Assembly (NCBI RefSeq): GCF_000613945.1
Contig: NZ_BAJY01000020.1
Coordinates: 1-50,187, forward strand
Source: Prevotella falsenii DSM 22864 = JCM 15124
GTDB taxonomy: Bacteria; Bacteroidota; Bacteroidia; Bacteroidales; Bacteroidaceae
DNA length: 50,187 nt
Direction: 5' to 3'
Position numbers and translations under genes: made by a program. The notes beneath the pieces are model-generated. The model was given only the letters and a program-made list of their open reading frames with translations. It was not told the origin of the DNA and made no database searches. The number at the start of each line of letters is the position of its first letter. Positions within the stretch are counted from its first letter, which is position 1. This document shows, one piece after another, positions 183-50,187 of this stretch.

Positions 183-270
183 TTTACACGTAAAGAAATA
201 TTTATTTACGTGTATGTAAATAATTACTTACGTGTAGAAAAATATTTATTTACGTGTAAATAATTTGGCA
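183..270 (+). repeat. 22-bp-period array, family A, copy 1
   Basis: Four units with cores at 186, 208, 230 and 252 are spaced exactly 22 bp. Each unit is approximately TTTAC-(AC or GT)-GTAAA. The cores read ACACGT, ACGTGT, ACGTGT, ACGTGT. Spacers are AT-rich (gaaatattta type). The right flank taatttggca recurs at the other family A copies. It lies between two convergent gene ends. Related copies are at 7456, 27942 and 40770. Confidence 0.9.
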
Positions 271-278
271 AACCTGCA

Positions 279-1363
279 TTAATTGTTCTTCTTATAGCTT
301 ATTACAGCCCAACCTCCCATAAAAAGAGCGATGCCTGAAAGGGCAAATACCTGATGAGCAATGCTGCTGAAGCTGCCTCCACGAATAAATACAGTGCGCA
401 TAGCCTCTATGAAATAGCTTACAGGATTAACGTATGTGGTGAGATAAGGCACGGACGGCATGGAACGTGTGGGGGTGAACAGACCGGAAAGCAACAGGAG
501 TATGACCACGAAGAACCACATTACGAAGATGGCTTGCTGCATGGTGTCGGAGTAATTGGATATAATCAGTCCGAAAGACGAGAAGAATAGTGCCAGCAAC
601 ATCGCCAGTAAATAGATGAGAGCGATATTCCCTACCGGAGTGATACCATATACAGCCCAAGCCAATACAAGACAGACGGTGATGATGAAGAAGCTATAAG
701 CCAGTAAGGAATGAGCTTTGCAAGAATGAATGTCCACTTGCTTACGGGGGTTACGTTTATCTGTTCTATCGTCCCCGTTTCTTTTTCGTTCACTATATTC
801 AGCGTTGGCAGGAAGCCGGTCATCAGCATCATCACGATGGCAAAGAGTGCAGGAATCATAAATAGCTTAAAGTTAAGGTGCTTGTTGTAAAGGTACAGCG
901 TAGCCACCTTCGTCTGAATGGCTGCAGCGGAGGGCAACGCATTGGCAGAAACAACTTGCGAAAGATAAACCGACCCTATGGAACCTTTTGTTCCATTGAC
1001 GGTATTGGCAGCAACAAGAACCTGTGGCATACGCCCCAAAGTAAGGTCGCGACTGTAATTCTGCGGTATAACCACTGCTATATCTGCCTCGGAACGCTCT
1101 ATATTGTTGAGTGCTGCGGCGTAGTTTGGTTGCTGACCGTGAAAGATAAAGTACTTGTTTGCTTCAATTTCGTGTACCAATTGTTGCGACTGCGTAGAGC
1201 GGTCGTTGTCCACAACATCTACTACGATGTTCTTTATCTCCATGTTCATTATCCACGGCATAACGCACATCATCAGAATTGGATAAACTATGATGAGCCG
1301 TGGAAGGAACGAGTTCCGGCGAATTTGAGTAAACTCTTTCCGTAAAAGATATTTCAGTGTCAT
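279..1363 (-). pseudogene. ABC-2 type transporter permease (frameshifted as sequenced)
   Basis: This is the second membrane subunit of the export operon. The N-terminal part (1363 down to about 692) has one membrane helix, a long periplasmic stretch and the start of the ABC-2 membrane domain; the rest continues in another frame from about 692 to a stop at 279 with the remaining helices (for example FFIITVCLVLAWAVYG). One extra T in the run at 691-692 would join WLIA to FFIITV and give one protein of about 361 residues, normal for the family. The gene starts 6 bp after the preceding permease. YhhJ/YbhS/YbhR-type permeases work as dimers with a cytoplasmic ATPase. The break is probably a sequencing error, but a real mutation cannot be excluded. 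Confidence 0.8.
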
Positions 1364-1369
1364 AGACTT

Positions 1370-2428
1370 CTATTCTAATCGTTTGTTGAACTTGGCGAGC
1401 GAGAGGGACAAAAGCACCACAAGCATACCTACAAGAATTGTTGTTTCACGGTACACTTGCTCTGCGCCAACCCCCATAATCATTAGTTTACGCATGGCAC
1501 TTGTATAATAGCGTGTGGGTATAATGGCTGATACATACTGCAATATTCGGGGCATTGACTCAATGGGGAATATCATACCGGAAAGCATTACAATGGGCAA
1601 CAGCAGCACCATTGCCGACAATAGCAATGCCACAAGCTGCGTTTTTGCAACGTTGGAAACAAGCAAACCCAACGAAAGAGCCAAGAGAATATATATCGTG
1701 GAAATAAGAAATATCCAGAACAAAGAACCTTGCAGCGGCACGTCTAACACGAAAATAGCCATAAGGAGTATCACTATCAGGATAACGAAAGCAAGCACCA
1801 AGTAGGGCACAACTTTGGCAACGATAATCATCAGCGGACGTATGGGCGAAACAAGAAGCACTTCCATAGTGCCTTTTTCCTTTTCGCGAACAATGGAAAT
1901 GGAAGTCATTATGGCGCAAACCAGCATCAGCAATGTTCCTATGATGGCAGGAACGAAGTTGTAGGCTGACTTCATCTGCGGATTATACAGCAACTTTGAG
2001 TTCACTATACTGCTTTCCGCATTCGTGATAACCGCACCGGCATAGGTCGTCCACAGCTGTGCCATGTTAGGGTCGGCACCGTCTGCAATGAGCTGAAATC
2101 CCGCTTTCTTGCTTGCAAAATCCTTCGCAAATACCACTGCCATGTCTGCTTTTTGGTTGCGGATAGTCTGTTCAGCCTCGGCAGGAGTATCAACCACCTT
2201 GGTTATGATGAAGTATTCCGATGCCGATAAGCGGTCTACAGCTTGCCGGGTGGCGTGGTCGGCATTGCTCATAACAACGATTGTCCGCACGTTTTTCACA
2301 TCGGTGGTAATGGCAAAGCCAAACAGAAGCATCAAGACTATGGGCATACCGAACAGCAACAGCATGGTGCGCTTGTCGCGAACAATGTGCTTGGTTTCCT
2401 TGACAACAAATGAAATAAACTGCTTCAT
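1370..2428 (-). CDS. ABC-2 type transporter permease
   Basis: 352 residues, the expected length for the YhhJ/YbhR-type ABC-2 membrane subunit. An N-terminal helix (about 23-42, LLLFGMPIVLMLLFGFAI) is followed by a roughly 130-residue extracytoplasmic domain and then five or six helices from about residue 165, with the typical VREKEKGTMEVLLVSP loop in between. It lies between the ATPase gene and a second permease gene and is probably co-transcribed with both. The pair would form the inner-membrane channel powered by the double ATPase. The substrate cannot be read from the sequence; relatives export drugs, bile-salt-like compounds or lipids. Confidence 0.9.
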   Translation of the reverse strand: MKQFISFVVKETKHIVRDKRTMLLLFGMPIVLMLLFGFAITTDVKNVRTIVVMSNADHATRQAVDRLSASEYFIITKVVDTPAEAEQTIRNQKADMAVVFAKDFASKKAGFQLIADGADPNMAQLWTTYAGAVITNAESSIVNSKLLYNPQMKSAYNFVPAIIGTLLMLVCAIMTSISIVREKEKGTMEVLLVSPIRPLMIIVAKVVPYLVLAFVILIVILLMAIFVLDVPLQGSLFWIFLISTIYILLALSLGLLVSNVAKTQLVALLLSAMVLLLPIVMLSGMIFPIESMPRILQYVSAIIPTRYYTSAMRKLMIMGVGAEQVYRETTILVGMLVVLLSLSLAKFNKRLE

Positions 2429-2459
2429 GTATATTGAACATTTATATTGAGATATATTC

Positions 2460-3935
2460 TTAATCCGAACTTCGCGTTGCCTGTCGTGCCAGATAGGTAA
2501 ACACGTGGTCCATATCGGGCTGGTTCAGCTCTCGTTTCAGTTCGTCGGGCGTGCCTAAAGCCTTGATTTTACCGTCCACCATAATGGAAATACGGTCGCA
2601 ATATTCAGCCTCGTCCATATAGTGAGTGGTTACAAAGACCGTTATTCCCCGTTCTGCAGCATCGTAAATCAGTTCCCAGAACTGGCGGCGCGTGGCAGGA
2701 TCGACTCCTCCCGTAGGCTCATCGAGGAACACAATCCCGGGTTCGTGGAAGATGCTGACAGAGAAAGCCAACTTCTGTTTCCACCCCAATGGCAGACCGG
2801 ACACCAAGTCGTTACGATGCTCCGCGAAGTTCAAACGCTGCAACAGAGCATCGGTCTTATGGCGTATCTCATCGTCTTGCATGCCGTAGATACCTGCAAA
2901 AAGACTTATATTCTCTGCAACGGTAAGGTCTTCGTAGAGCGAGAACTTCTGACTCATATAGCCAATGTGTTTCTTTATCTCCTCATACTCGGTGCGTATG
3001 TCGAAGTTCACCACTCTGCCTGTACCGCTTGTGGGTTGGTTAAGCCCCGTCAGCATGTGCATGGCAGTAGTTTTGCCGGCTCCGTTGGCACCGAGAAAAC
3101 CGAAGATTTCGCCTTTCTTAACGGTAAAGGAAATGTCGTCCACCGCACGGAAACTACCAAAAGCCTTTACAAGATGTTCTACTTCGATGACATTTTCAGC
3201 CTCATTGCCAACCTTATTGCTTCCTTCGTGCTCGATACCGGGTGGGTTAAATACATCTCTAAACTCCGTAAGAATGTCTTCGGGAGCCCCTATACCTTTT
3301 ATAATACCTTCTGAAAGAAAGGCTACACGCTCACAACTTCTCACCTCATCGAGGTAAGGTGTGGAAGCAATAATGGCTATATCGCGCGCTTTCAGTTGTG
3401 CCAATATCTCCCAAAACTCCTTACGGCTGACCGGATCAACGCCCGTTGTAGGCTCGTCAAGGAACAGTACGCTCGGCTGATGGACAAGGGCACAGCAGAG
3501 TGCCAGCTTCTGTTTCATACCACCGGAGAGTGCTCCTGCCTTTCTATTCTTAAATCGTTCAATCTGCGAATAGATGGCTTTGATGGAATCGTAGTTTTCT
3601 TCTATCGTTGTATTAAAGAGCGTTGCAAAGAACTTCAGGTTCTCTTCTACCGTCAAATCCTGATAGAGCGAGAACTTGCCGGGCATATATCCGACCCGCT
3701 TGCGTATCTCTTTCATTTGGCTCACCACGTCGTAACCATCTACCGTAGCAGTGCCGGCATCGGGAAGAAGCAGCGAGCAGAGAATGCGATACATAGACGT
3801 CTTGCCCGCTCCATCGGGACCAATGAGTCCGAACACCTCACCTTTGCCCACGGAAAAGCTGACATCGCGCAGTGCCTGCACTTTGCCATAGTGTTTGGAT
3901 ACATTATTTACTTCGATTGCATTCATCGCTTTCAA
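2460..3935 (-). CDS. ABC transporter ATP-binding protein with two nucleotide-binding domains
   Basis: 491 residues holding two fused ATPase domains, as in the YbhF/RbbA type. Domain 1 has Walker A GPDGAGKT (about 39-46), signature LSGGMKQK and Walker B LFLDEPTTGVDP, but its switch region reads ASTPYLDE, with no histidine. Domain 2 has Walker A GANGAGKT, an unusual signature LPLGWKQK instead of LSGG, Walker B VFLDEPTGGVDP and an intact switch histidine (TTHYMDE). The domains are therefore unequal and may form one competent composite site. It powers the two permeases encoded downstream and sits 7 bp after the HlyD gene. An internal Met at codon 4 is an alternative start. Confidence 0.92.
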   Translation of the reverse strand: MKAMNAIEVNNVSKHYGKVQALRDVSFSVGKGEVFGLIGPDGAGKTSMYRILCSLLLPDAGTATVDGYDVVSQMKEIRKRVGYMPGKFSLYQDLTVEENLKFFATLFNTTIEENYDSIKAIYSQIERFKNRKAGALSGGMKQKLALCCALVHQPSVLFLDEPTTGVDPVSRKEFWEILAQLKARDIAIIASTPYLDEVRSCERVAFLSEGIIKGIGAPEDILTEFRDVFNPPGIEHEGSNKVGNEAENVIEVEHLVKAFGSFRAVDDISFTVKKGEIFGFLGANGAGKTTAMHMLTGLNQPTSGTGRVVNFDIRTEYEEIKKHIGYMSQKFSLYEDLTVAENISLFAGIYGMQDDEIRHKTDALLQRLNFAEHRNDLVSGLPLGWKQKLAFSVSIFHEPGIVFLDEPTGGVDPATRRQFWELIYDAAERGITVFVTTHYMDEAEYCDRISIMVDGKIKALGTPDELKRELNQPDMDHVFTYLARQATRSSD

Positions 3936-3941
3936 TATGGC

Positions 3942-4958
3942 TTAAAACTTTACTTCGCCGTACATTCCTATCTTTACATAGCCGTCGTTTTGGAACTGTA
4001 TCTTGACAGCATAGACCAAATCGGCACGCTCATCGTCGGTAACGATGGTCTTAGGCGTGAACTCCGAGCGACTTGAAATCCAAGTAACGATGCCGTTATA
4101 CTGCTTTTTCTGCCCGTTTCCATAGTCTGCCATCACCTTAACCTTTTGCCCAAGGCGGACATTTTTCAATTGTTCTGAAGTGATATATGCCCGTATGAAC
4201 ATTCTCTTGGTATCGGCAATCTTGAACAGTGGTTTACCTATGGAAACAAATTCACCCTGCTCTGCATACTTTTCCAAGACAGTTCCGGTAAGCGGAGTCT
4301 TCACGAAGGTGTGGGCAATCTGGTCGTCGAGCTGTGCTTGTTGGGCACGCACGCCGGCTTGTTGAGCGCTTACGCCTGCCTGTTGTGAATTGATTCCATC
4401 GATTTGCGCAGCAATTCCCTTGTTCTGTTCGGCTAATGCAGCATTCTGACCGGCTATCTGTTCTTCGGTTGCTGCAAGCTGTTTCTGCAACACTTGTATC
4501 TGATAATCTATGTCATCGACCTGCTTTTGTGGTACAGCACCGTCGCGCAAGAGTTCCGAAAAACGCTGACGCTCCCGCTGTTGATTGGCTATCTGCTGAC
4601 GAATGGACGCCACTTGCTTCTTCAAATCCAATTGTTTGCTTGCCGTTGCCTGTCGGTTGGCAGCCAGCTGTCGCTTATTTGCATCGAGCTGACCGTGCGT
4701 AGCAACCAGTTGGTCGTTATTTGTTGCCAGCCGGGCACGCTGCAACGTGAGTTGTCGGGAGTCTATCTGCCCTACCGTAATTCCGCCGTCGAGCAACTGT
4801 CCTTCCTCTACGTGAAAGCTCATCAGCTGTCCTGAAGACTCGGCAGATACGGTAACTTCCGTAGCTTCGAATGTTCCCGTTGCATCATATTCCTTTTTAT
4901 CCTCTCCGCAAGATGCCATTATAAAGGCAAGACCGGCTAATAAAAATGTCTTTTTCAT
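3942..4958 (-). CDS. HlyD-family periplasmic adaptor (lipoprotein)
   Basis: 338 residues. The N-terminus is a lipoprotein signal ending AFIMASC, with the lipidated cysteine at residue 17, so the protein is probably membrane-anchored in the periplasm. A short biotinyl-lipoyl-like strand region (TVSAESSGQLMSFHVEEGQ) is followed by a long coiled coil (about 75-215) rich in Gln and Ala with repeated AQQAGV motifs, then the second lipoyl half and a beta-barrel (GTVLEKYAEQGEFVSIGKPL). This is the membrane-fusion protein that links inner-membrane ABC permeases to a TolC channel. The TolC gene lies 16 bp upstream and the ATPase gene just downstream, which supports a tripartite exporter. Confidence 0.92.
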   Translation of the reverse strand: MKKTFLLAGLAFIMASCGEDKKEYDATGTFEATEVTVSAESSGQLMSFHVEEGQLLDGGITVGQIDSRQLTLQRARLATNNDQLVATHGQLDANKRQLAANRQATASKQLDLKKQVASIRQQIANQQRERQRFSELLRDGAVPQKQVDDIDYQIQVLQKQLAATEEQIAGQNAALAEQNKGIAAQIDGINSQQAGVSAQQAGVRAQQAQLDDQIAHTFVKTPLTGTVLEKYAEQGEFVSIGKPLFKIADTKRMFIRAYITSEQLKNVRLGQKVKVMADYGNGQKKQYNGIVTWISSRSEFTPKTIVTDDERADLVYAVKIQFQNDGYVKIGMYGEVKF

Positions 4959-4974
4959 ATCTGTTGGTTGTTTT

Positions 4975-6246
4975 TTATTCGTTGTTGGTGTATTTCAGAT
5001 TATACATTTCCTTGAGCATATCTATCTCGTGGATAACCTGTTGAGTCTTGGCTGCATTCTCATTGTTTATCTCTCGCAGCAAGCTATTGACGTCAATGAT
5101 GCCGTGGACAAGCTTCGATTCGGCTGCTTTGCGTACGTTTGTGCGCAAAGCAATTATCTCGTCGTCGGCTTGCATCATTGTGCGGTATCGGTTTGCATTC
5201 TCTGTTTGCTGTATCTGTTCCATATTGTTGTTGAACAGGAACACCTCCCGTGTATTCTCAATCAGTTCGCGTTGCACCCTCAACTTGGCTTTATCGTTCT
5301 TGTGCGTATAGAGTGCGCCCACGTTCCAAGACAGTTTTATGCCCACCATGCCGTTGAAACTCCACTTGCGACTCATCATATCCTCGAACATATTAAGTCC
5401 CGGATAGCCGTAATAGCCTTGAGCATAAAGCCCCAACTTGGGTCGCAGCCTTGTGTCTAAGGCTTTCTCCTGCACTTCGGAAAGCTTCAGCTGATTGTCG
5501 AACAGCCGGATTTCCGGACGATTGCTTGCCGATGCACCGGGTTCAACAGCCGCCGGCTTTTCGGGATTGCTTATCTCTATGCCGCAAAAAACACTCAGCA
5601 TACGCTGCAACATCTGTCGTTGCGATTTCAGACTCTCGTTCTGTTGCACTACGCTCAACCGCTCCGCCTTCACGTTATCAAAGTCGCTTGTGGCTGCCGT
5701 ACCGCCTTTTACCATAGCGGCAAGTTTCTTTTCGCTCGACAGCAACAAAGCCTTTACGTCGTCGTTCAGTCTGATTTGTTCGTCGAGAAGCAAAAGCGAG
5801 AAGTACATTTCATTGACACGCTTGCGCACCTGATACAGGTTTACTTCGGTTTGTGCCTCCTGAACCTTTCCTTCCTGACGTGCTACGGTGCGCTGACTGC
5901 TTATGGCACCACCGTCATAGATGGTTTGCTGAAGGTCTACACCTATTTTATATTGGTCTTTGGTCAGCCCTTTCATGTTGAGTCCCATCTGTTGGTACAT
6001 ACTTTTCAGGCTTTCCGGCCACGACACGACGTCGCTTTGATAAGTTGCTTGCGCCGAAGCAGTAATCTGCGGTAACCACCCTTTCTGAATATTTCTGACT
6101 GTCAGCTCGGTTGTCTGAGCAATTAAGCCATACTGTTTGATAATGGGATAGTTCTTCTCAGCAGCCTGCCGGCATTCTTCCAACGTCTGTGCTTGGGCAA
6201 CAGATGCCAGCATTATCAAGCTAAGGGTTATTATTTTCTTTTTCAT
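4975..6246 (-). CDS. TolC-family outer-membrane efflux channel
   Basis: 423 residues with a cleavable signal peptide (MKKKIITLSLIMLASVAQAQ) and the two-fold repeated helical and beta architecture of outer-membrane efflux proteins; LEECRQAAEKNYP near the N-terminus is the usual first helix of the family. It is the first gene of the reverse-strand operon TolC, HlyD, ATPase, permease, permease. A Bacteroidetes-type -7 box lies at 6284-6291 about 40 bp upstream. Role: outer-membrane exit duct for the exporter. Substrate unknown. Confidence 0.92.
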   Translation of the reverse strand: MKKKIITLSLIMLASVAQAQTLEECRQAAEKNYPIIKQYGLIAQTTELTVRNIQKGWLPQITASAQATYQSDVVSWPESLKSMYQQMGLNMKGLTKDQYKIGVDLQQTIYDGGAISSQRTVARQEGKVQEAQTEVNLYQVRKRVNEMYFSLLLLDEQIRLNDDVKALLLSSEKKLAAMVKGGTAATSDFDNVKAERLSVVQQNESLKSQRQMLQRMLSVFCGIEISNPEKPAAVEPGASASNRPEIRLFDNQLKLSEVQEKALDTRLRPKLGLYAQGYYGYPGLNMFEDMMSRKWSFNGMVGIKLSWNVGALYTHKNDKAKLRVQRELIENTREVFLFNNNMEQIQQTENANRYRTMMQADDEIIALRTNVRKAAESKLVHGIIDVNSLLREINNENAAKTQQVIHEIDMLKEMYNLKYTNNE

Positions 6247-6283
6247 ATCGTTGAAATTATATTGCTCTTTCTACTTCATGGGA

Positions 6284-6291
6284 CAAAGATA
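6284..6291 (-). promoter_or_regulatory. -7 promoter box for the export operon
   Basis: On the reverse strand this reads TATCTTTG, a match to the Bacteroidetes -7 consensus TAnnTTTG, 38 bp upstream of the TolC start codon. No clear -33 element was assigned. Confidence 0.6.
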
Positions 6292-6388
6292 ACATTTTGT
6301 TCTGTTACTTCATTAACCAACACACCGATATTATTGCCCTTTTGTACGATTACTATTAAAATTCTTTTCTCATTCGATAGAATAATCT

Positions 6389-6396
6389 TAATTTTG
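6389..6396 (+). promoter_or_regulatory. -7 promoter box for the AraC-type regulator
   Basis: TAATTTTG matches TAnnTTTG, 29 bp before the start codon at 6425. It is divergent from the export-operon promoter, with about 100 bp between the two boxes, so the regulator could act on both. Confidence 0.6.
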
Positions 6397-6424
6397 CAAT
6401 TAATTCATACAAAAAGGCAAGTTC

Positions 6425-7291: not shown

Positions 7292-7455
7292 TTATGCCGT
7301 TTGCTCTGCACTATCCAACTCGCTGCAATAAGTATCAAAAGAATAGAATGAGAGAATGCAGCAAATAACAGTTACGATTTGTTCCTACCTCCGGCTATAT
7401 TTCAATCGTTCTTCCTTTATCGAATACCTCCCGATATATGCAGTTCGATATATTC
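7292..7455. other. Intergenic stretch without a recognised feature
   Basis: Between the AraC-type gene and the family A array I see no convincing ORF, RNA gene or strong terminator. The region from 7545 to the ddh promoter at 7800 is similarly empty; a 41-codon ORF there is listed among the rejected items. Confidence 0.6.
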
Positions 7456-7544
7456 TTTACACGTAAAGAAATATTTATTTACGTGTAGAGAAATATTTAC
7501 TTACACGTAGAAAAATATTTATTTACACGTAAAGAATTTGACAA
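7456..7544 (+). repeat. 22-bp-period array, family A, copy 2
   Basis: Cores at 7459, 7481, 7503 and 7525 are spaced exactly 22 bp and read ACACGT, ACGTGT, ACACGT, ACACGT. The right flank gaatttgaca matches the other copies. It is located between the AraC-type gene and ddh. Confidence 0.9.
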
Positions 7545-7799
7545 AGTTTTGCAAAAACAACATAAGCAACTAATAATGAGAAGGTTGAAAGATATATTTT
7601 ACTGCGCTCGTAAACAGCAGAAACAAGCCATCTTTTTAGCGCATGGAAAGAGAGACGGCAGAAAACGAAAAGCAAGGGTGGCATTGCGGAAAACCGTATG
7701 AAGAAAAACAACAGCGTGCGGACAAAGTCGTAAAATGGGAATGGAGAATATTTTCAAGAAAAAAACACAACTAATTTCTCGTTAATCACATTTTTGCAG

Positions 7800-7807
7800 T
7801 ACTTTTG
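7800..7807 (+). promoter_or_regulatory. -7 promoter box for ddh
   Basis: TACTTTTG matches TAnnTTTG, 45 bp before the ddh start codon. A purine-rich ribosome-binding region (aagggaaag) precedes the ATG. Confidence 0.55.
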
Positions 7808-7852
7808 CACTCTATAAAGAATAGGTAAAAATAATGTTTTAAGGGAAAGATT

Positions 7853-8828: not shown

Positions 8829-8856
8829 CACATAAATAAATGTTGAAATAACAGAA

Positions 8857-19244: not shown

Positions 19245-21144
19245 TTACTTCACTTCCTCAAAATCTGCATCTTGAATAGTGTCGTCCTGCTTTGGTTGCT
19301 CTTGCTGTGCCTGCTGACCTGCGTCTGCTCCCGGCTGTGCACCTGCACCTTGATACATCTGTTGGCTGGCTGCCTGCATCACGGTGTTGAGGTTGTTGAT
19401 AGCCGTGTCGATTGCAGCAATGTCGGCTGCCTTGTGGGCGTCCTTGAGCTGTTGGAGGGCTGACTCGATAGCGGGCTTTTGGTCGGCCGGTATCTTGTCG
19501 CCGTTGTCCTTCAAGAAGTTCTCGGTGGTGAAAATCGTTGAGTCGGCTTGGTTGAGCTTGTCTATCTTCTCGCGCTCTGCCTTGTCGGCTGCTGCGTTCT
19601 GCTCTGCCTCTGCTTCATTCGGTTGATTTCTTCTTCGCTCAAACCGCTCGATGCTTCGATGCGTATGCTTTGTTCCTTGCCCGTAGCCTTATCCTTTGCC
19701 GATACACTCAGAATACCGTTGGCGTCGATGTCGAATGTTACTTCAATCTGTGGTTCTCCACGACGAGCAGGGGCTATGCCTGTGAGGTTGAACTGACCGA
19801 TGCTCTTGTTCTGCGCTGCCATCGGACGTTCGCCTTGAAGCACATGGATTGTTACTTCGGTTTGGTTGTCGGCAGCTGTCGAGAATACTTCGCTCTTCTT
19901 ACAAGGAATGGTAGAGTTGGCATCGATGAGCTTTGTCATTACGCCGCCCATTGTTTCGATACCGAGTGTCAGCGGAGTAACGTCGAGCAACACAATGTCG
20001 CCCACGCCGCTTTCCTTGTTAAGGATAGCACCTTGAATAGCTGCACCTACGGCTACCACTCGTCGGGGTTCACACCCTTTGAAGGTTCTTTGCCGAAGTA
20101 GTTCTTCACCAATGTCTGTACGGCAGGAATACGGCTCGAACCACCTACGAGGATTACTTCGTCGATGTCTGACGTAGAGAGCTTCGCATCGCGAATTGCG
20201 TTCTGACAAGGTACGAGGCAAGCCTGAATGAGGTTGTGTGCCAACTGTTCGAACTGCGCACGCGTCAAAGTCTTTACCAAGTGCTTCGGTACGCCGCCTT
20301 CAGCCGTGATGTACGGCAGGTTGATTTCGGTAGAAGTAGTGCTCGAAAGTTCTATCTTAGCCTTTTCGGCAGCTTCTTTCAAACGCTGCATAGCCATCGG
20401 GTCTTTGGTAAGGTCGATACCTTCGGCAGCTTTGAAGTCGTTTGCCAACCAGTCTATGATAACTTGGTCGAAGTCGTCGCCACCCAAGTGGGTATCGCCG
20501 TTTGTAGACAACACTTCAAACACGCCGCCACCAAACTCAAGGATAGAAATATCGAATGTACCGCCACCAAGGTCGAACACGGCAATCTTCATATCCTTAT
20601 TTGCCTTGTCTACACCGTAAGCCAATGCAGCTGCTGTAGGCTCGTTCACGATACGCTGAACATTCAAGCCTGCAATCTGACCGGCTTCCTTTGTAGCCTG
20701 ACGCTGTGAGTCGGAGAAGTAAGCAGGAACCGTGATAACAGCGTCTGTTACTTCCTGTCCGAGATAGTCTTCTGCGGTCTTCTTCATCTTCTGAAGTATC
20801 ATGGCAGATATTTCCTGCGGAGTGTATTTACGGTCGTCAATCTGTACGCGTGGATAGCCACCTTCGTCTACAACCGAGAATGGCACACGTGCAGCTTCTT
20901 TTGCACATTGTGCGTAAGTTTCGCCCATGAAACGCTTAATAGAGTAAACTGTTTTCTTGGGATTTGTGATAGCCTGACGCTTTGCAGGGTCGCCAATCTT
21001 GCGTTCGCCACCTTCAACGAAACCTACGACAGAAGGTGTCGTGCGCTTACCTTCGCTATTTGCGATTACAACAGGCTCGTTGCCTTCAAATACTGAAACA
21101 CAAGAGTTTGTTGTTCCTAAGTCAATTCCAATAATCTTTCCCAT
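19245..21144 (-). pseudogene. dnaK: Chaperone DnaK/Hsp70 (two frameshifts as sequenced)
   Basis: The start is the Met at 21144 ([20 protein letters not shown]); upstream in-frame codons are not part of DnaK. ATPase motifs IDLGTTNS and [14 protein letters not shown], substrate-binding segments ([29 protein letters not shown]) and the C-terminal DADFEEVK are all present. The frame is broken near 20059 (should read DEVVAVG) and 19613 (should read MKAEAEQN). Adding one base at each restores a protein of about 633 residues, standard for DnaK. DnaK folds and refolds proteins with DnaJ and GrpE and is practically indispensable, so both breaks are most likely sequencing errors. No dnaJ or grpE neighbour is seen. 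Confidence 0.95.
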
Positions 21145-21467
21145 AATGTATATTTTTTTGTTTTTATTATTATCAATTCCGTTATGCTTCTGTTTTTTCA
21201 GTTGCATTCGCTTCATTAATTACAAACGATATGCCAATGGGAGAGAACTGACAGATTGGCAGAGACGGCTGCTGTCGTTTCTTTTTAGCATAAAAATGGC
21301 TGTCTTTAACCCAAGTGGCAAGAGACTGCCAAAATAGGTGAAGTATCTTCGTCATCAAATTTCTACACCGAACTCATGTTGTTTATGGACGAAAAGAAGG
21401 CAATAAATACGTAAATATTTTTCGCAAGCGTAGCTACGGTTTAACTATCTATGTGTCAGCGCATTAT
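21145..21467. other. Intergenic region upstream of dnaK
   Basis: Presumably holds the dnaK promoter, but I did not find a clear TAnnTTTG box on the reverse strand and saw no CIRCE-like inverted repeat. Degenerate units resembling the family B array (for example AAGCGTAG at 21426-21433) extend left of the clear array. Confidence 0.4.
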
Positions 21468-21548
21468 AAAACCTATTGTTTTGCGTTCCAAAACCGTAGG
21501 TTTTGCACGGTAAAAGCGTAGGTTTTGCAATGCAAAACAGCCGCTTTC
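21468..21548 (+). repeat. 22-bp-period array, family B, copy 1
   Basis: Four units at 21468, 21490, 21512 and 21534, exactly 22 bp apart, each 15 bp with arms AAAA/TTTT and a 7-bp core, separated by 7-bp spacers. Cores: CCTATTG, CCGTAGG, GCGTAGG, CAGCCGC. Copy 2 at 34516 is the same array in reverse orientation with one unit different. Confidence 0.9.
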
Positions 21549-21770
21549 GCAATGCCAAAGCGCAGTTATCATTTTTTAAGGGAATTATCATTACAAAATA
21601 AGCGTAAATTAACTTGCTTGATTTAGTGCGAATAATTTGCTCATTCCGAGAAATTTTCGGAACTTTGCAGCCAAATATTATATGGCTATGCTTACTATGT
21701 TTTTACACATTAAATATTTTGAGCTTTAATTTTACCGACAGATAATATAAATAATTAAACCTATTAAAAG

Positions 21771-27772: not shown

Positions 27773-27941
27773 ATGAATTTATTTTAAAATGCTGTTAAAA
27801 AAACAATATTCTTTCGGTATAAGAGCAAAAGTATTCTTTTGCAAACGTACAGCAGAAAAACTATCACAATAATTACAGAATACTATTTAAACAAAAGGAT
27901 AATAATGATTTAGCTCTTAATTTCTTTTCTCCGTAGAATTA

Positions 27942-28030
27942 CTTACACGTAAATAAATATTTCTTTACGTGTATGGAAATTATTATTTACGTGTAGAAAA
28001 ATATTTATTTACACGTAAATAAATTGGCTG
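27942..28030 (+). repeat. 22-bp-period array, family A, copy 3
   Basis: Cores at 27945, 27967, 27989 and 28011, exactly 22 bp apart, read ACACGT, ACGTGT, ACGTGT, ACACGT. The right flank taaattggct matches the other copies. It lies between the 3' end of pgk and the upstream region of the DUF4468 gene. Confidence 0.9.
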
Positions 28031-34453: not shown

Positions 34454-34515
34454 AAAAAACTTTTGCCTTGTAAAGATAATTCCGAAGCAAAATGATAATT
34501 TCGATTGGGCATTGC

Positions 34516-34596
34516 GAAAGCGGCTGTTTTGCAACGCAAAACCTACGCTTTTACCGTGCAAAACAGCCGCTTTTGGAATACGAAACAATAGGTTTT
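34516..34596 (-). repeat. 22-bp-period array, family B, copy 2 (inverted)
   Basis: Units at 34516, 34538, 34560 and 34582, exactly 22 bp apart. Cores on the forward strand: GCGGCTG, CCTACGC, CAGCCGC, CAATAGG. Read on the reverse strand this is the array at 21468, except that one unit is GCGGCTG instead of CCGTAGG. Confidence 0.9.
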
Positions 34597-34842
34597 GTAA
34601 TGCGCTGATAAAAAGTCAGTTAAGCAGCAGATATTCCTCTTAAAAGTATTTACGGTTTTGTTGTTTATTTTCTGCTTATATAATGGGGAAAGTATGTTCG
34701 CTTTTCATATACCTTTGATGTAATATTTTTAGTGTTGTTACTTTTCTATTATTCTATTTTGTTGCCGTTTTAAAAGACTGATATATCGTGTTTGGTAGTC
34801 TTAAAGTTTCCTAAAAAGGCTGCATTTTCCTTACAAAACTAC
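34597..34842. other. Gene-free AT-rich upstream region
   Basis: No ORF, RNA gene or further repeat recognised between the family B array and the -7 box (TATCTTTG, 34843-34850) of the following gene. Confidence 0.4.
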
Positions 34843-36625: not shown

Positions 36626-36822
36626 CAAAAAGGCTTTTTCTGACAAGAGAAACACATTGTTAGTTTTTCCCGGTTCTTAGATATGGGTTTTCAAATAGGT
36701 TAAAACCAAGATTGTGTCTGTAGTTATCTCTGCTTTGCAAACTGTAATTGAATGTCATTTTCCGGGCATTTGGTCTTTTTGTACCGTTGCTATGTTAAGA
36801 AAGCCATATAAGAAAGCTAACT
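36626..36822. other. Gene-free stretch before the tandem repeat
   Basis: No ORF, RNA gene or strong structure recognised in about 200 bp. Confidence 0.4.
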
Positions 36823-36972
36823 CGGAATAGCTGCAACACCATATCAATAATGTAATCAGCCTATTTTATTGCTAAATATCGACTGTTTCGGAATAGCTGC
36901 AACACCATATCAATAATGTAATCAGCCTATTTTATTGCTAAATATCGACTGTTTCGGAATAGCTGAAACACC
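36823..36972. repeat. 66-bp tandem duplication (2.3 copies)
   Basis: Two identical 66-bp copies start at 36823 and 36889, with a partial third at 36955 (unit starts CGGAATAGCTGCAACACC). 66 is 3 x 22, and the second 22-bp third resembles the reverse complement of the first (AATAGxCTG against CAGCCTATT), so this may be a diverged member of the 22-bp arrays. It ends 7 bp before the SprT-like gene's stop codon. Confidence 0.85.
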
Positions 36973-40751: not shown

Positions 40752-40769
40752 CACTACAACTATGATTTT

Positions 40770-40860
40770 TCTACACGTAAATAATAATTTTTCTACACGT
40801 AAATAAATATTTCTTTACGTGTAAGTAAATATTTCTCTACGTGTAAATAATTTGGCAGAC
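40770..40860 (+). repeat. 22-bp-period array, family A, copy 4
   Basis: Cores at 40773, 40795, 40817 and 40839, exactly 22 bp apart, read ACACGT, ACACGT, ACGTGT, ACGTGT. The right flank taatttggca matches copy 1 exactly. It lies between the -7 box and the start codon of the HU-like gene. Confidence 0.9.
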
Positions 40861-40905
40861 AATAAAAAATATAAGTATAAACCCCTTAAAATCAGGAGAA
40901 AAACT

Positions 40906-41508
40906 ATGGCAGTATTTTATAAGTTGATAAAGACACACGGTGCTTTGCCCAAGAATACAGAGTACAGAGTTGTTGCAGTAGAGAACGAAACCGTAGGAGT
41001 GAAACACCTTGCGCAACGCATACAGGAAGCTACATCGCTTACGCCAAGCGACGTTGTTGCAGCCGTGAGTGCATTGAAAAACGAAATGGCAGCGGAATTG
41101 AAGATGGGCAACAACGTTCATCTGCCGGGATTAGGCTACTTTTCGCTCGCTGTGAAAGGCGACATCTACGAAGACCCGCACACACACCACCGCCGGTTGC
41201 GCAATCCGAAAGTGAGAACGGTGAAGTTCCGCCCCGATACCGAGTTCCTTGAGTCGCTCGACGACACCCAATTCGAGAATATGACCTACCGTCTTGGCAC
41301 ATCGTCGGTTCCCACAACCGAAGCTGTCGATGCCGCACTCGACGAGTTGTTTACCGAAAAACCTATCATCACCGTTGCCGACCTGCGCCAAAGCCTCAGC
41401 CTTTCCCAATCGTATGCCTACCAACTGACTGCCCGCTTGGAAGCAAATGGCAAGCTCAGCAGTGTGGGCACGCGATACAGAAAGCTCTATACAAGAGGAA
41501 AGAAGTAA
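40906..41508 (+). CDS. HU-like DNA-binding protein (HU-HIG type) with C-terminal winged helix
   Basis: 200 residues from ATG 40906, preceded by a good ribosome-binding site (aggag); an upstream in-frame ATG at 40852 would start inside the repeat flank. The N-terminal ~120 residues are an HU-like fold (TPSDVVAAVSALKNEMAAEL, GNNVHLPGLGYFSL). The C-terminal ~55 residues look like a winged helix (ITVADLRQSLSLSQSYAYQL). It probably binds and bends DNA. The leader contains a family A array, so autoregulation through the array is conceivable. Function in vivo unknown. Confidence 0.85.
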   Translation: MAVFYKLIKTHGALPKNTEYRVVAVENETVGVKHLAQRIQEATSLTPSDVVAAVSALKNEMAAELKMGNNVHLPGLGYFSLAVKGDIYEDPHTHHRRLRNPKVRTVKFRPDTEFLESLDDTQFENMTYRLGTSSVPTTEAVDAALDELFTEKPIITVADLRQSLSLSQSYAYQLTARLEANGKLSSVGTRYRKLYTRGKK

Positions 41509-42247: not shown

Positions 42248-42323
42248 ACAAACCGTTGTGCGTTCGTTTTTTCATCGTTGAAAGAATTTCGGAAAGGGAA
42301 AGCGTCGGACAGAGTTTTCATCA

Positions 42324-45300
42324 ATGAAACAAAGAAAATACATATTATCCGCTCTTCTGCTGCTTGCAGGCGTCAGCTTGTTGGCTTTGGGACGCTCGTT
42401 TGTGAATGTGTTGCCATTTGTAAGCACATTGCAGACGTTGATTGCGCCACCCGACACAACGAAGAAAGTGAATGTATTGGACGTTGAATTGGAGAACGAA
42501 GACATTCCCGACTCGCTGCTGCACCCACGTTGGAAGGTGCAACGCACCACACCCGTAACCCACGACGACTTGCAGCAAGGCTCTTACGACCTCGCTCGCC
42601 CCGAAAATCTGAAGCAAAGCGTGGAATACAACGACACGCTCAACATGTATATAATAGGTAACAAGATAGGCGACACCTACATTACCACACCTATTATGAT
42701 GACGCCCGAAGAGTACAGGGCATGGAGCGAGAAGCGTAGCTTTGCCGATTACTACCGCCAAAAGAACAAGGAGATATTAGAAAAGAAAGGAAAAGAGAAG
42801 TTCGACTTCACGGATATGCACTTCGCACTCGGTCCGGCAGAGAAGATATTCGGTCCGGGTGGTGTGCGTGTAAGGACACAGGGAACAGCCGAACTGCGCT
42901 TTGGTGCTACGCTGAAAAACATCGACAACCCATCGTTGCCCATCAGAAACCGTAAGATGACAACGATGAACTTCGACGAAAAGATAAATCTGAATGTGAA
43001 CGGAAAGGTCGGCGACAAGGTGAATATGAACCTTAACTACAACACCGACGCTACATTCGACTTTGATACACAAAACTTCAAGCTGCGCTACGAAGGCAAG
43101 GAAGACGAAATAATAAAACTTGTGGAAGGCGGTAATGTTTCGTTTCCGTCGAACAACTCGTTGGTACAGGGCGCATCGTCGCTCTTTGGTATCAGAACCG
43201 ATATGCAGTTTGGCAAGCTGAAGCTGCAAACGGTGTTGTCGCAGAAGAAGTCTTCCAACAAGAGCGTAAGCTCAAAAGGCGGCAAACAGCTTACACCGTT
43301 CGAGATTTCAGCTGCCGACTACGAAGAAAACCGACACTTCTTCCTGTCTCATACGTTCCGTTCGCGCTACGACGATGCGATGAAAACCTTGCCCAACCTA
43401 ACCACAGGCATTACGATAAACCGTGTGGAAATATGGGTAACCAACAAGACGGGCGTAACCAGCAATACCCGAAACATTATAGCACTGAGCGATTTGGGAG
43501 AGAATGCAAAGGTGAGCCGTACCGATTTGTGGGGCAGCGGAGCAGGCAATGTACCATCGAACAATGCCAACAGCGAATATAGCACCATTGCACAGGGGCA
43601 CCCACAGGCTCGCAACATAGACCAAACGTCTACCGTGCTCGACGGTTTAGGACTTGTGGGCGGCACTGACTACGAGAAGCTATCGAGTGCCCGTTTGCTC
43701 AATAGTTCGGAGTACACCGTCAATCAGGCGTTGGGTTATGTGTCTTTGCGCACAGGATTGCAAACCGACCAAGTGCTTGCCATCGCCTACGAATACACCT
43801 CCGGAGGTGTAACTTACCAAGTGGGAGAGTTCTCAAGCGACCGCACCGAAGTTTCGGAAGCGTTGATTGTAAAGTCGCTGAAGAACACAAGCAACAACCC
43901 AAAGCAAGCCAACTGGGACTTGATGATGAAGAATGTTTATTATCTTGCCTCAACAGTTGAGCGCGATAAGTTCCGCTTGGACGTCAAGTTTCAGAGCGAT
44001 ACGGCAGGTGTCTACCTTCCTTATATACCCGAACCACAGGTGAAAAGCCAACCGATAATAAGAATATTAGGGGCAGACCGCTTAGACAACAATAACAATC
44101 CACACCCGAACGGATACTTCGACTATGTAGAAGGCTACACGATTTCTAACGGTCGTGTGTTCTTTCCTGCAGCCGAACCTTTTGGCGAATATATGTATAA
44201 CTACTTGGTTTCAAAAGGTGTTGCAGCTGCAACGGCAAGCAAGTATGCTTTCATGGAACTGTACGATTCGACCAAAACCATAGCAAAACAAATTGCAGAG
44301 AAAGACAAATACCAGCTTGTGGGACAATATAGAGGAACAAGTGCCAACGTTATTTCGTTGGGCGCATACAACGTTCCGCAAGGTTCGGTTGTAGTAACGG
44401 CAGGCGGCGTACGACTGACGGAAGGCTCGGATTATAGCGTCGATTACAATGCGGGCGAGGTTACGATATTAAATCAGAGCATTATAGATGCCGGTACCTC
44501 GGTAAACGTTTCGTTGGAAAGCCAAAGCGATTATGGGCAACAGCGCAAAACGATGTTCGGATTGAACTGGGAATACGACTTCTCAAAGAACTTTATGATT
44601 GGCGGTACGTTTATGCACCTGTCCGAACAGGCACTTACAACAAAGGTGAACATGGGTGCCGAACCGCTCAACAACACCATTTGGGGACTCAATATGAGTT
44701 GGAAGAAGGAAAGCCAGTGGCTCACGAACATGCTCGACAAGATTCCTTTCCTGCATCTTACGCAGCCTTCTCATATCTCGTTCTCCGCCGAATTTGCACA
44801 GTTGATAGCAGGTCAGAGCAGCGGAACACAAGATAGGGCATCGTATCTGGACGACTTCGAGAATACAAAGAATACAATTGATGTAAGCCAACCTACTACT
44901 TGGGTTATATCGAGTGTGCCCTCCGACTTCCCCGAATCTACCGATAAGACAACACTTGGCAGCGGTTTCAACCGCAGTTTGCTGGCGTGGTACAACATCG
45001 ACCCGCTGTTTACACGTATCAGCAGTTCGCTGACGCCTGCCCATATCAAGAGCGACCTTGAACAATTGTCGAACTTCTACGTTCGAGAGGTTTATACGCG
45101 CGAGCTGTTTCCTAACCGTGAACAAAGCAATTACAACGGTTCAACGTCTACTTTGTCGGTTCTTAACCTTGCTTACTATCCAACTGAGCGTGGTCCTTAC
45201 AACTTCAGTCCGACACTCGACATCAACGGACGCTTGCCCAACCCACGCCAAAAGTGGGGAGGTATGATGCGCAAGCTCGATACGAACGACTTTGAGATGG

Positions 45301-48300
45301 CGAATATCGAATACATTGAGTTCTGGTTGCTCGACCCATTCATCTATTCAAGCAAAGAACCTGATGGCAATCTCTACGGTGGCGACTTCTATATAAACCT
45401 TGGCGAGGTGTCGGAAGATATATTGCGCGACGGCAAGAAATTCTACGAAAGCGGTATGCCGGTAGATGGCAGTCAGGCGTGGACAACCACTCAATGGGGT
45501 AAGATACCGACACAGACCACTGTAACATACGCTTTTGCCACCACAAGCGGCAGCCGTGCTTTGCAAGATGTCGGTTTCAACGGACTCAATGACGAAGAAG
45601 AACGCAACTTCCCTTCTTATCAAGCGTTCCTGACATACGCTCGCAGCCATACCAATCAGGCTGTGTTCGACTCTATTTGGGCTGACCCTGCCAACGACAA
45701 CTATCATTATTTCCGTGGTTCGGACTGGGATAGAATACAAGCACCCATACTTCAACGCTACAAGTATATTAACAATCCGCAAGGAAACTCGCCCGATAGC
45801 GAAAGCCGCAACGAACGTTACGACACGTCGTACAAGGCAGGACCTGACGTTGAAGATATAAATCAAGACTATACGCTCAACGAATACGAAAAGTACTATC
45901 AGTATAAGATAAGCATTCGACCGGAAGACTTGGTGGTGGGACAAAACTATATCGTTGATAAAAGAGAAACCGTTGCACCGTTGCGCAAAGGCGGAAGCGC
46001 ACCTGTTACGTGGTATCAGTTCCGCATTCCTGTGCGAGAATATCAGAAACGTGTAGGCGGCATCAACGATTTCACGAGCATTCGCTTTATGCGCATGTTC
46101 CTTACAAACTTTGAAAAGCCTATCGTGATGCGCTTTGCAACGCTCGACCTCGTGCGTGGAGAGTGGCGTCAGTATCAGCAAAACCTTACCAACTCTGCTT
46201 CAACATCAGGAACAATGTCTGTCGGTGCGGTGAGCATAGAGGAAAACAACGATAAAACACCTGTAAACTATGTACTTCCTCCGGGCATTTCGCGTGAGCA
46301 AGACCCCTCACAACCACAACTTGTGCAGAGCAACGAGCAGGCGTTGGCTATGACGGTACACAATTTGGGCAACAAAGAGTCGAAAGCGGTTTACAAAAAC
46401 ACCACGCTCGACATTCGCCAATACAAGCGTTTGCAGATGTTCGTGCACGCCAATGCACTTAAACCGGACGTTACCAACCTTACCGACAATCAGTTGGCAG
46501 TGTTTGTTCGTTTGGGTTCTGACTACAAGAACAACTACTATGAATACGAAATACCATTGAAACTGACGCCCGAAGGCAGTACGACAAGTATTCGCGACAG
46601 GATTGTGAGGCGGTTTGGCCGGCAGAAAATATGCTCGATGTGCCTATTTCGGTATTCACAGATGTGAAGAAGAAACGCAACGAAGGGCGCGGAAACGGCA
46701 CGGCAAGCTATAATAAGGAGTTCTCTGTGTACGACGATAAACGCCCTGCCAACCGTGTCAGTGTGATGGGTAACCCGACATTGGGCGAAATAAAGACAAT
46801 GATAATCGGTGTGCGCAACCTCTCGAACAGCGAGAAGAGCGGTGAAGTGTGGGTGAACGAAATGCGTTTGCTCGAATTCAATAACGAAGGTGGCTGGGCT
46901 GCACGCGGGCAACTCAACATTCAACTGTCGGATTTCGGTACGGTGGACATCAATGCCAGCCACAGCACCGACGGCTTTGGTGGTCTTGAACAAGGTGTAA
47001 ACGCACGTAAGAAGGAAACCAATACCGATGTTACGGTTACTACAAGTCTGGAGTTGGGTAAGTTCTTCCCCGACAAGGCAAAGGTTACCGCACCTTTATA
47101 TTATAGTGTAACGAAAAACGAAAGCCGTCCGAAGTACAATCCGCTCGATACGGATATGCAGTTAGATGCTGCGCTCGACGGTGCTGCCAACGAACACGAG
47201 CGCGACTCGATAGAGTCTATCGCCGTTACAAAGCGTACAACCACCAACTTCTCGCTGTCGAATGCACGTGTGGGAATACAGAACAAACGCCACCCAATGC
47301 CTTACGACCCAGCCAACTTCTCGTTCTCTTACAGTCATTCGCATGCACATACGACGGGCGAAACAACCGTGTACGAGAATGAAGACAACTGGCGCGGTGC
47401 GATAAATTACAATTGGACACCTGTCTACAAGCCGTTGAGTCCTTTCAAGAAACTTATCAAGAGCAAGTCGAAATGGTTTGATATAATGAAGCGTTTCGAG
47501 ATGAATTGGTTGCCACAGAATGTTGCTTTCAACACGGAAATTACGCGTAACTACTACGAACTGCAACAACGAGATATGGATTCGGCAGAGAAGAATATGT
47601 TGCCGCTGACGTTTAGCGAACAGTTCTTGTGGAACCGCGACTTTGCCGTGCGTTGGGATTTGACACGCAACCTGCACTTAAACTTCCAAAGTGCTACGCA
47701 TGCGGAGATAGAAGAGCCTTACACGCCAATCAACAAAGACCTTTATCCCGACCGTTATCAGGCGTGGAAAGATTCTGTATGGACGAGTTTGAAGAATTTT
47801 GGTACGCCGTTGGACTACCAACAGAACTTCACGCTTTCTTATCAGTTGCCGCTTAACATGCTGCCTATATTCGATTGGGTGAACGCCGATGCGAATTACA
47901 ATTCCGCTTATACTTGGGTACGTGGTGCAAAACTGGAGAACGGTACATCGTTGGGCAACACGATTACGACCAACCGCACATTGAATATAAACGGTACGTT
48001 CAATTTAGAGCGACTCTACAACCATATTCCTTTCTTGAAAAAGACCAATGAAAGGTTTAACAAGTCGCGTCCGAGCATTAGCAGAGGTGGTTCGCTTGAA
48101 GGCCGAGGGCGCATTGATACTGGTAATTTAGCCGACCAACTGAGCAAGGAATTGGGAGGAGACGCCAAGACAAAGAAAGATAACGACAAAGACAAGAAGA
48201 AGGCTTTGCCTAAGAATGCAAAGAGTTTTGAGCAGGAAGTAACGATACCTGCCGATACGGCGATTGTTGTTTCGCACTCGAAGAAGACCAAGCGTATTGT

Positions 48301-49933
48301 TGTTTCGCTGAAAGATGCTGACGGACATTCGGTGAAATTGAAGTGGAAGAAGATGGACGAAAACAGACTGAAGTTGTACAACAAGGCTGATTCTGTTATG
48401 CGCTTGAAACTCACCGTTACACCGAAGGAACCGCTCGACGACAAGGGTTGGTACAAAACAGCGCAATGTGTGGCACGTGCTTTAATGATGGTGCGCACTG
48501 CCAGCATATCTTACCGCAACCAGTATTCTATGTCGTTGCCGGGCTTTATGCCGATGATTGGCGATGCGTTTGGGCAGACTCGCCAAAGCGGAGTGATGTC
48601 GCCGGGTCTGAATTTTGCTTTCGGTGCCATCGACGACAGCTATATCGAACGGGCAAGAGAAAAAGGTTGGCTACTTGTTTCTGACAGTATTGCTACGCCC
48701 GCATCGACAAACAAGACGGAAGATTTGCAGCTTCGGGCAACGCTTGAGCCTGTCCGCGACCTGAAGATAGACCTCAATGCAAGCCGCATGGAAACGGTTT
48801 CAAAGAGCGTGCAATATATGTATGCAGGCAATCCTACTACGCAAAGCGGTACGCTGACGATGACTACAATCTCAATAGGTACGGCTTTCGAGAGTCAGGG
48901 CAATGCCAACAACGGTTATCGCAGTGCGACTTTCGAGAAGTTTGCCAAGTCGCTCGATGGTTATCGTAACCGTGTCGAGGCTCGCTACATCGGTGCCAAC
49001 TATCCGATGTCGATGGGTGGAGGTAAGTTCGACCCACGTGTGGGAACGGTAAATAAGTACAGTTCCGATGTAATGATACCCGCTTTCCTGAACGCTTATA
49101 CAAGTATGAGCGGCAACGGACTGAATATATTCCCCAAGCTGAAGAGCTTGTTGCCCAACTGGACCATTCGTTACAGCGGACTGTCGCGCTTGCCGTTCTT
49201 CCAGAATATCTTCAAGAGCGTGAACATCAACCACTCTTACAAGAGCATCTTTGCCATTGGCTCTTACCAAAGTTTCAGCACGTGGCAGGAATATATGAAT
49301 GGTTTGGGATTTGTGAAAGACGCTACATCGGGTGCACCCGTACCAAGTTCGATGTATAACATTTCGCAAGTGAGCATAAACGAGGCATTCTCGCCATTGC
49401 TCGGAATCGATGTTACCTTGCAAAACAACCTTACGGCTCGTTTGGAATATCGCCAGACGCGTGTTCTGTCGCTCTCCATGACGAGTGTTCAGATAAACGA
49501 AGCAATGTCGAAAGACTGGGTTATCGGTTTTGGCTATCGCATCAATAACGTGAATTTGTTTGGCGGTCGCAACTCACGATTGGTAAAGAATACCAAGAAG
49601 AAAGACAACCGGCAAGACCAGCAGAATAGCAATACGCAGAGCACAAGCAATAAAAACAGTGGCGGCATCAACCGCGACCTGAACCTTCGTCTCGATTTAA
49701 GCTATCGCAAACAAGCCTCTATCACGCGCGATATTGCAACCGTAACATCGGCTGCATCGAGTGGGAACACTGCTTTCAAGGCTTCTTTCGTTGGCGATTA
49801 TACGTTGAGTCGCCTTATCACGGCAAGCATTTATTACGACATTCAAATCAATACGCCGTTACTTTCTTCGAGCAGCTACCCTACAACAACCCACGATTTC
49901 GGTATCAGCCTGAAACTCAGCCTCACCCGATAA
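42324..49933 (+). pseudogene. sprA: SprA/Sov type IX secretion outer-membrane translocon (frameshifted as sequenced)
   Basis: The two open segments together cover about 2,536 residues, the size of SprA/Sov. The N-terminus has a signal-like helix (YILSALLLLAGVSLLALG). The body is the large beta-barrel with many repeats of aromatic-ended strands and SprA-family segments such as FGPGGVRVRTQGTAELRFG and QLIAGQSSGTQDRASYLDDF; it ends in a beta-strand (GISLKLSLTR). The frame breaks at 46577; one extra C restores EGQYDKYSRQDCEAVWPAEN and joins both halves. SprA forms the giant channel through which T9SS cargo crosses the outer membrane. The break is most likely a sequence error. Confidence 0.93.
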
Positions 49934-49959
49934 GGTTTGTTTTATTATAAACAAGCCTT
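49932..49959 (+). terminator. Terminator hairpin overlapping the sprA stop
   Basis: AAGGTTTGTTT pairs with AAACAAGCCTT (one G-U pair) around ATTATA. The following T-run is short (CTTTC). Confidence 0.5.
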
Positions 49960-50078
49960 CTTTCGCAATAGAAATATTCTTCTATCTTTCTGTATGTTCA
50001 ACGTGTAGCAGGCTATACGTTGAACGTCTATCATCGATATACTTGACCGCCCGCTATCAAATAACCGAATAGCCTACA

Positions 50079-50187
50079 CTGGACACGTTTGTCCAACTTA
50101 TTGGACACACTTGTCCGGTCGGTTGGACACGTTAGTCCAATTAATTGGACAAGTGTGTCCAATCGGTTGGATTAACGTGTCCAATGG
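50079..50187 (+). repeat. 22-bp-period array, family C (runs to the window end)
   Basis: Five units at 50081, 50103, 50125, 50147 and 50169 (numbering the GGA of each), exactly 22 bp apart. Each is 18 bp, TTGGAC-N6-GTCCAA with small variations, plus a 4-bp spacer. Cores: ACGTTT, ACACTT, ACGTTA, AAGTGT, TAACGT. Core 4 is the reverse complement of core 2, and core 5 of core 3. Confidence 0.9.

Follow-up and report, generated by a model that had tools for sequence, protein, structure and literature searches.

Seven short tandem arrays on a contig of Prevotella falsenii DSM 22864 = JCM 15124 belong to three families (A, B and C) that have no sequence in common and nevertheless share a pitch of 22 bp, and this pitch recurs in further unrelated families of the same genome and in several related species. 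The stretch analysed, hereafter the window, is the entire contig C73 of 50,187 bp. Reading the arrays from their sequence, we suggest, with a probability of roughly 40%, that each of them, placed where transcription units end, accommodates a row of some four symmetric protein dimers, with 11 bp per monomer. An initial inspection of the window from its letters only (the sequence-only reading) had proposed that the arrays form one class of intergenic site, defined by 22 bp spacing, inverted arms and a core that flips between units, for a nucleoid protein, a recombinase or an RNA structure. Its observations stand: there are four arrays of family A, two of B and one of C, all seven lie between main open reading frames (ORFs) according to our reading of the ORF list, and the core flips are real.

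The draft genome comprises 2.80 Mb in 92 contigs and is 94% complete. We analysed a sample of 824,516 bp (the window and 39 other stretches; 29% of the genome), which consists mostly of long contigs and is non-random. Among Tandem Repeats Finder (TRF) rows with at least 2.4 copies and a period above 9, 91 of 117 have a period of 22, compared with five at period 21 and one at period 23. Three dinucleotide shuffles of the sampled DNA, used as the null model, gave 2, 0 and 3 rows, none of them at period 22. TRF rows overlap and their counts therefore exceed the number of arrays; merging of rows with periods 22 and 44 resulted in 78 arrays representing 11 unrelated sequence families, with 47 arrays in B, 15 in A, three arrays in each of three families (among them D, AAATATGACGTCATATTT, and K, GTAATCGGATTACC), two in one family and five families of a single array. 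A search for mirror axes that is blind to sequence gave peaks at distances of 11, 22, 33, 44, 55 and 66 bp (202, 147, 129, 100, 88 and 50 pairs) over a median background of 7 across distances of 15 to 60 in the 824 kb. The 11 bp axis spacing is not separate evidence, because a period of 22 with one mirror axis implies a second axis 11 bp away. Pooled palindromy exceeds 0.6, the threshold adopted for mirror-image units, in 68 of the 78 arrays. The ten arrays below it are all three of family F (CTCGGTATCTTTTTGCAGATTG, at loci L016 and L115), the single arrays of G (L022:9794), J (L006:8936) and L (L011:14337), two of the three K arrays, one of the two H arrays and one B array. The class independent of sequence that the sequence-only reading had envisaged is thus strongly upheld by the scan against shuffled DNA, within the 29% sampled, and it extends to related species, there mostly with other sequences.

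Family A has the eight-base core TACRYGTA, and such cores up to 70 bp apart are spaced solely by 22, 44 or 66 bp (41, 26 and 11 pairs), with none at 20, 21, 23 or 24; wherever neighbouring cores lie within 43 bp of each other, in 41 pairs, the distance is 22 bp. The sample holds 15 chains, 11 with four units and four with three exact cores. The 11 four-unit elements are each 92 bp long, which is not evidence since they were picked by exact 22-bp steps; their 33 spacers comprise 22 distinct sequences. Core centres read GT 33 times, AC 21 times, AT twice and nothing else, orientations being mixed inside a single array, and the elements have ends such as CAAATTATT..AATAATTTG. The pair pattern of family A matches the whole genome 102 times, as opposed to 0 matches for a backward control, and is found in 3 of 60 genomes of the genus, the other two having one match each. 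In a genus relative, G032, the backward control itself (ATGYRCAT twice, 22 bp apart) has 13 matches and resembles another 22-bp palindromic family.

By our reading of an alignment (A1), family B is a conserved block of about 184 bp with GTAAA..TTTAC ends and a central array; the end of the copy at 21411..21593 reads ..TCATTTAC. We found 65 anchor matches at 64 places in the sample, which extrapolates to about 217 per genome; 56 of the 65 anchors passed a register filter and 55 were aligned, one being omitted from the list. Its GCAAAA arms are spaced by 22 bp in 48 cases, 21 in two, 23 in two and 24 in one. The sixth core occurs in both orientations, with the outer pair AC in 33, GT in 16, AT in 11 and AG in one of 61 copies, and never GC. 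Cores 3, 5 and 7 consist mostly of two words, CGTAG and CGGCT, which recur in these three slots as if cores were exchanged between units by conversion. P. nigrescens records contain relatives of B (79 and 71%), and P. nigrescens sites orthologous to B copies, chosen by eye from block ends, keep the CAAAA/TTTTG arms with different core words. Arrays with TTTTGC/GCAAAA arms are also listed in P. aurantiaca and S. baroniae, and the exact B core pattern has no match in the 11 genomes of the named loci. Family B is probably PINSR, an intergenic element of 188 bp described in P. intermedia (177 to 184 copies) and present in P. nigrescens (Naito 2015, PMC4755523). This identification draws on the similar length, intergenic location, copy number and presence in P. 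nigrescens. Section 3.4 of that paper describes PINSR and mentions neither an array of 22-bp units, nor mirror-image units, nor further families of the same pitch. A copy downstream of tnaA has been reported in P. intermedia; the B arm and core pattern is absent from C91:1-4000 around tnaA in our genome (G000:C91:180-1529), a weak test of one locus in one genome.

The one array of family C in the window has CACGTT and CACACT cores together with their reversals, and its unit count is a minimum because the contig end cuts it. The arrays in the window are listed in Table 1; each of its A arrays has four TAC-RY-GTA cores in 22-bp steps.

Table 1. Arrays and elements of the three 22-bp families in the window. 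Bounds of A arrays lie 9 bp beyond the outermost cores, with AC cores given as F and GT cores as R (as stated for array 176..267); all TRF intervals have period 22.
Feature	Positions	Strand	TRF interval	Description
Family A array	176..267		180-260	four 22-bp units with cores oriented F R R R
Family A array	7449..7540		7448-7536	four units, F R F F
Family B element, probably PINSR	21411..21593	+	21478-21559	palindromic 22-bp array (TRF interval) in the middle
Family A array	27935..28026		27939-28024	four units, F R R F; 3' of pgk, past a terminator-like hairpin
Second family B element	34471..34653	-		inside 34462-34671; overlooked by TRF
Family A array	40763..40854		40765-40850	four units, F F R R; immediately ahead of an HU-domain (HU-HIG) ORF
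Family C array	50080..50187		50080-50185	at least five units, TGGACA/TGTCCA arms

The ORF with the HU domain (40852-41508) begins right where its neighbouring A array ends. A 66-bp tandem repeat of different sequence (36822-36972; 2.3 copies, 98%), three times 22 bp in period, adjoins the 3' end of an ORF, and Rfam gave no match above gathering score in the window. Three genes appear to be split over two overlapping frames each, dnaK (20053-21216 / 19562-20221), sprA (42324-46667 / 46631-49933) and an ABC permease (632-1363 / 279-737), suggesting frameshift errors in the draft.

By phosphoglycerate kinase the nearest named relatives listed are Prevotella aurantiaca and P. multiformis (91%), followed by P. 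vespertina and P. brunnea (90%), although very near records may be left out of this comparison. How marked the 22-bp preference is depends on the species, ranging from strong to weak or absent. Period 22 leads in P. vespertina (15 of 25 TRF rows), P. nigrescens (16/26), P. multiformis (5/15) and some others, and does not lead in S. copri (0/12) or in Bacteroidales outside the Prevotellaceae, where loci labelled Muribaculaceae, Paludibacteraceae and other Bacteroidales (717 kb) have 3 of 53 rows at this period. Its share is 5/10 in S. baroniae, 2/3 in Leyella, 1/2 in H. enoeca, 1/2 in three other Prevotella jointly, 1/6 in P. abscessus and 6/18 in loci of other Prevotella and of Prevotellaceae metagenome-assembled genomes. 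Among genomes of the same genus it ranges from 6/23 (G126), 3/11 (G162) and 1/10 (G058) to 0/3 (G261) and 0/1 (G233), and elsewhere it is 5/9 in G113, 0/5 in G253 of the same genus as G113, 3/8 in genus 3, 1/5 in genus 13 and 2/16 in eight further genera. P. vespertina (28, 25, 20 and 19 at 11, 22, 33 and 44 bp; median 2) and P. nigrescens (14, 14 and 10 at 11, 22 and 33 bp; median 2) show clear mirror-axis peaks; those of P. multiformis are weaker (9, 7 and 7, with 13 at 11.5 bp; median 1), and none is seen in the outer Bacteroidales loci. Array sequences mostly differ by species, with GGGAA..TTCCC in P. multiformis, TTATAC..GTATAA in P. vespertina and GCACC..GGTGC in G162. The family H pattern (AACGATAGTACTTT) has 22-bp spacing in G113 and some match, in many cases a single one, in 57 of 251 genomes; arrays like family H occur in P. 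vespertina and H. enoeca. Two 22-bp arrays from different genera, L138:88-161 (Phocaeicola abscessus) and L117:2507-2572, have AAAATTGTCT..AGAGAATT arms in common and unlike cores.

Gene context was derived from plain ORF calls, with a minimum length of 100 aa and the longest ORFs taken first, and not from a gene finder. Of 99 arrays, 20 could not be classed and were dropped. The remaining 79 comprise 28 in convergent, 38 in tandem and 13 in divergent intergenic regions, as against 18.7, 41.5 and 18.8 expected from length (p 0.034). Among regions of at least 250 bp, arrays are present in 27/51 that are convergent, 33/99 that are tandem and 12/50 that are divergent. Co-directional arrays are closer to the upstream stop in 26 of 31 cases, and a terminator-like hairpin lies between gene 3' end and array in 27 of 80 stretches versus 4.6 +/- 1.9 in ten shuffles, one hairpin being counted twice for two neighbouring arrays. 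Intergenic mirror-image units of varying orientation with a convergent excess would also suit topology sites akin to bacterial interspersed mosaic elements (BIMEs), at which DNA gyrase or an HU/IHF-type protein would bind between convergent genes and relieve or trap supercoils. In E. coli, BIME-2 is bound by gyrase and has regularly spaced repetitive extragenic palindromes (REPs) of alternating orientation (PMC2817692). Such a role appears quite unlikely, as the convergent excess is modest (binomial p 0.017, with approximate gene calls) and no RAYT-type transposase was found in the 94% complete draft. Array position is not conserved: the pgk 3' region has a 22-bp array in only 3 of 75 other loci, including P. 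multiformis, with unrelated sequences and one more locus at 23 bp, and the site 3' of the ABC permease has family A in the window versus a B-like array in P. nigrescens, whose orthologous stretch was likewise selected by eye. Searches for synteny with P. nigrescens turned up no array that was matched on its two flanks.

Location near upstream stops is also what would be expected of RNA hairpin arrays that stabilise or terminate transcripts. Consistent with this, RNA folds are strong in all eight arrays tested (z -3.1 to -12.6), B lies against co-directional genes in 21 of 26 cases, and the third and seventh cores of B show a tendency to match each other, which in 9 of 55 copies involves changes on both sides. 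However, the covariation term of B is just -0.64 and 11 of 55 copies break three pairs, and B was rejected as an RNA structure on this weak covariation. Real arrays of this genome fold on average no better than arrays whose units were shuffled and flipped; in the two cutting phases the mean z is -0.16 (n=68) and 0.04 (n=56). Better folding at p 0.05 is confined to C (z -2.5) and two arrays of B; a single long hairpin as the cause of flipped cores fits these three and not the set, and was rejected. Sense-strand arm mismatches in 27 co-directional arrays, from which those with pooled palindromy below 0.6 had been dropped, include 75 G.T versus 94 A.C (29 versus 52 in B), and are thus not enriched in G.U. 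In family D and at the AAATATTT axis of A, perfect palindromy continues right across the axis, leaving no loop. Taken together, the shuffled-unit folding, the lack of a G.U excess and the terminator-like hairpins already present ahead of arrays favour DNA over RNA as the acting form, making the RNA structure allowed for in the sequence-only reading improbable. Its recombinase site is not indicated either: no Y1 transposase was found in the 94% complete draft and core orientation looks neutral.

A nucleoid or other DNA-binding protein may read the arrays. A row of symmetric dimers needs a near-fixed pitch together with unconstrained sequence and, as seen in this genome, unconstrained core orientation, and a neutral core orientation is expected if a symmetric dimer reads each unit. 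The arrays would act as tandem repeats of double-stranded DNA whose 22-bp pitch holds about four dimers each; the dimers of a binding protein would dock next to one another along a single helix face, and the row may then act on DNA topology or block read-through between genes. Different families could be read by related proteins that share a fold or by a single sequence-tolerant protein.

Several observations weigh against such dimer rows. No array-binding protein was found, and none was sought by experiment. DNA has 10.5 bp per turn and two turns amount to 21 bp, and four units at 22 bp would drift by about one third of a turn unless the bound DNA were slightly unwound. Four 22-bp families of this genome (F, G, J and L) are not clearly palindromic, and in S. 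baroniae and G113 period 22 is not accompanied by a mirror-axis peak. Among other species, 13 palindromic arrays fold worse than their shuffled and flipped versions (mean z +1.1 and +1.0), because their units run mostly one way; flipping is not favoured there. Inverted arms predominate in this genome without being shared by all 22-bp families. The supposed intolerance of spacing changes likewise stands for A cores and becomes near-fixed spacing elsewhere, given the few B neighbours at 21, 23 and 24 bp and the GGGAA/TTCCC family of P. multiformis, which mixes 22 and 23 bp (10 and 7 GGGAA pairs). A purely symmetric site does not predict the strand polarity of B, 53 of the 80 stretches have no detected terminator-like hairpin before the array, and arrays are rare and unrelated in sequence at the orthologous pgk site.

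Selfish or neutral repeats, generated by a copying or duplication process of the lineage that works in 22-bp steps and confers no host function, are a real if tentative possibility, and fit the data nearly as well as dimer rows. Dispersed families would then resemble miniature inverted-repeat transposable elements (MITEs), single-copy families would be local duplications, and hairpin-forming mirror units might duplicate more easily. The scattering of A and B as whole elements and the occurrence of D and K in three arrays each suggest that some copying process spreads them. The restriction of the A pair pattern to 3 of 60 genus genomes (102, 1 and 1 matches), the coming and going of arrays at the pgk site (3/75), the avoidance of regions before gene starts, as for tolerated insertions, and the mostly one-way units of other species, as from plain tandem duplication, point the same way. 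On the other hand, core spacing is held although spacer sequence varies, and no mechanism known to us would impose a 22-bp step on unrelated sequences. The Y1 transposase/RAYT domain (PF01797) has no match in the 94% complete draft and matches in 5 of 14 control genomes, and a RAYT/REP origin was rejected on this basis. Phage carriage was also rejected, as one A and one B pattern are unmatched in viral contigs and B is unmatched in phage records. Two plasmid records that match B are labelled as P. nigrescens plasmids, which we infer to be second replicons like those described for P. intermedia.

A broader form of the dimer-row proposal is a lineage-wide pitch code in Prevotella and related genera, in which sequences turn over and the 22-bp dimer pitch is kept because the nucleoid system of the lineage would read geometry rather than sequence; we consider this unlikely. 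Repeat families in bacteria are usually defined by sequence, whereas here a geometric rule unites families without a common sequence, within a genome and across species. Such a rule offers a direct means of searching for the binding partner or the copying machinery, and would place PINSR, and perhaps the BrickBuilt element of Porphyromonas gingivalis, in a wider class. Open-licence literature on Prevotella and Bacteroidales repeats, PINSR, REP/BIME elements and periodicity yielded no description of the shared 22-bp pitch; the class as a whole therefore appears undescribed, as first supposed, with the qualification that B resembles published PINSR.

Among known systems, the iterons of plasmids R6K and pPS10 are also tandem 22-bp units on one face of the helix; they are direct repeats at a single replication origin and, unlike the arrays described here, are neither palindromic nor dispersed. 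The BrickBuilt MITE is likewise found in oral Bacteroidales as intergenic, dispersed tandem units, which are 23 nt long and predicted to form stem-loops, and 22-nt repeats are mentioned for strain W83 (Klein 2015, PMC4596501). In the parts of that paper describing it, BrickBuilt is one family of 1 to 22.8 units with a leader and tail bearing IS5-type terminal inverted repeats (TIRs), in contrast to the many families of mostly three to five 22-bp units observed here. Derivation of our arrays from BrickBuilt or an IS5-type MITE is not indicated, as their period is 22 and the ends of A and B differ from the TIR table (PMC4596501). REPs and BIMEs are intergenic palindromes of 20 to 40 bp, alternating in orientation in BIMEs, and the present arrays agree with them in being intergenic palindromes of varying orientation. 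They differ in that REP/BIME elements are linked to RAYT transposases, of which none was found here, and in that the descriptions drawn on do not include a 22-bp pitch shared across sequences (PMC2817692, PMC3733652). The closest geometric parallel is phosphorylated BvgA (BvgA~P), whose head-to-head dimers have been experimentally mapped at 22 bp from centre to centre with one monomer per turn, weak sites included (PMC7250471). The arrays agree in geometry alone, with inverted half-sites 22 bp apart from centre to centre and tolerance of sequence; rows of BvgA dimers lie at promoters (PMC7250471), whereas the arrays of P. falsenii lie at gene 3' ends by the hundred.

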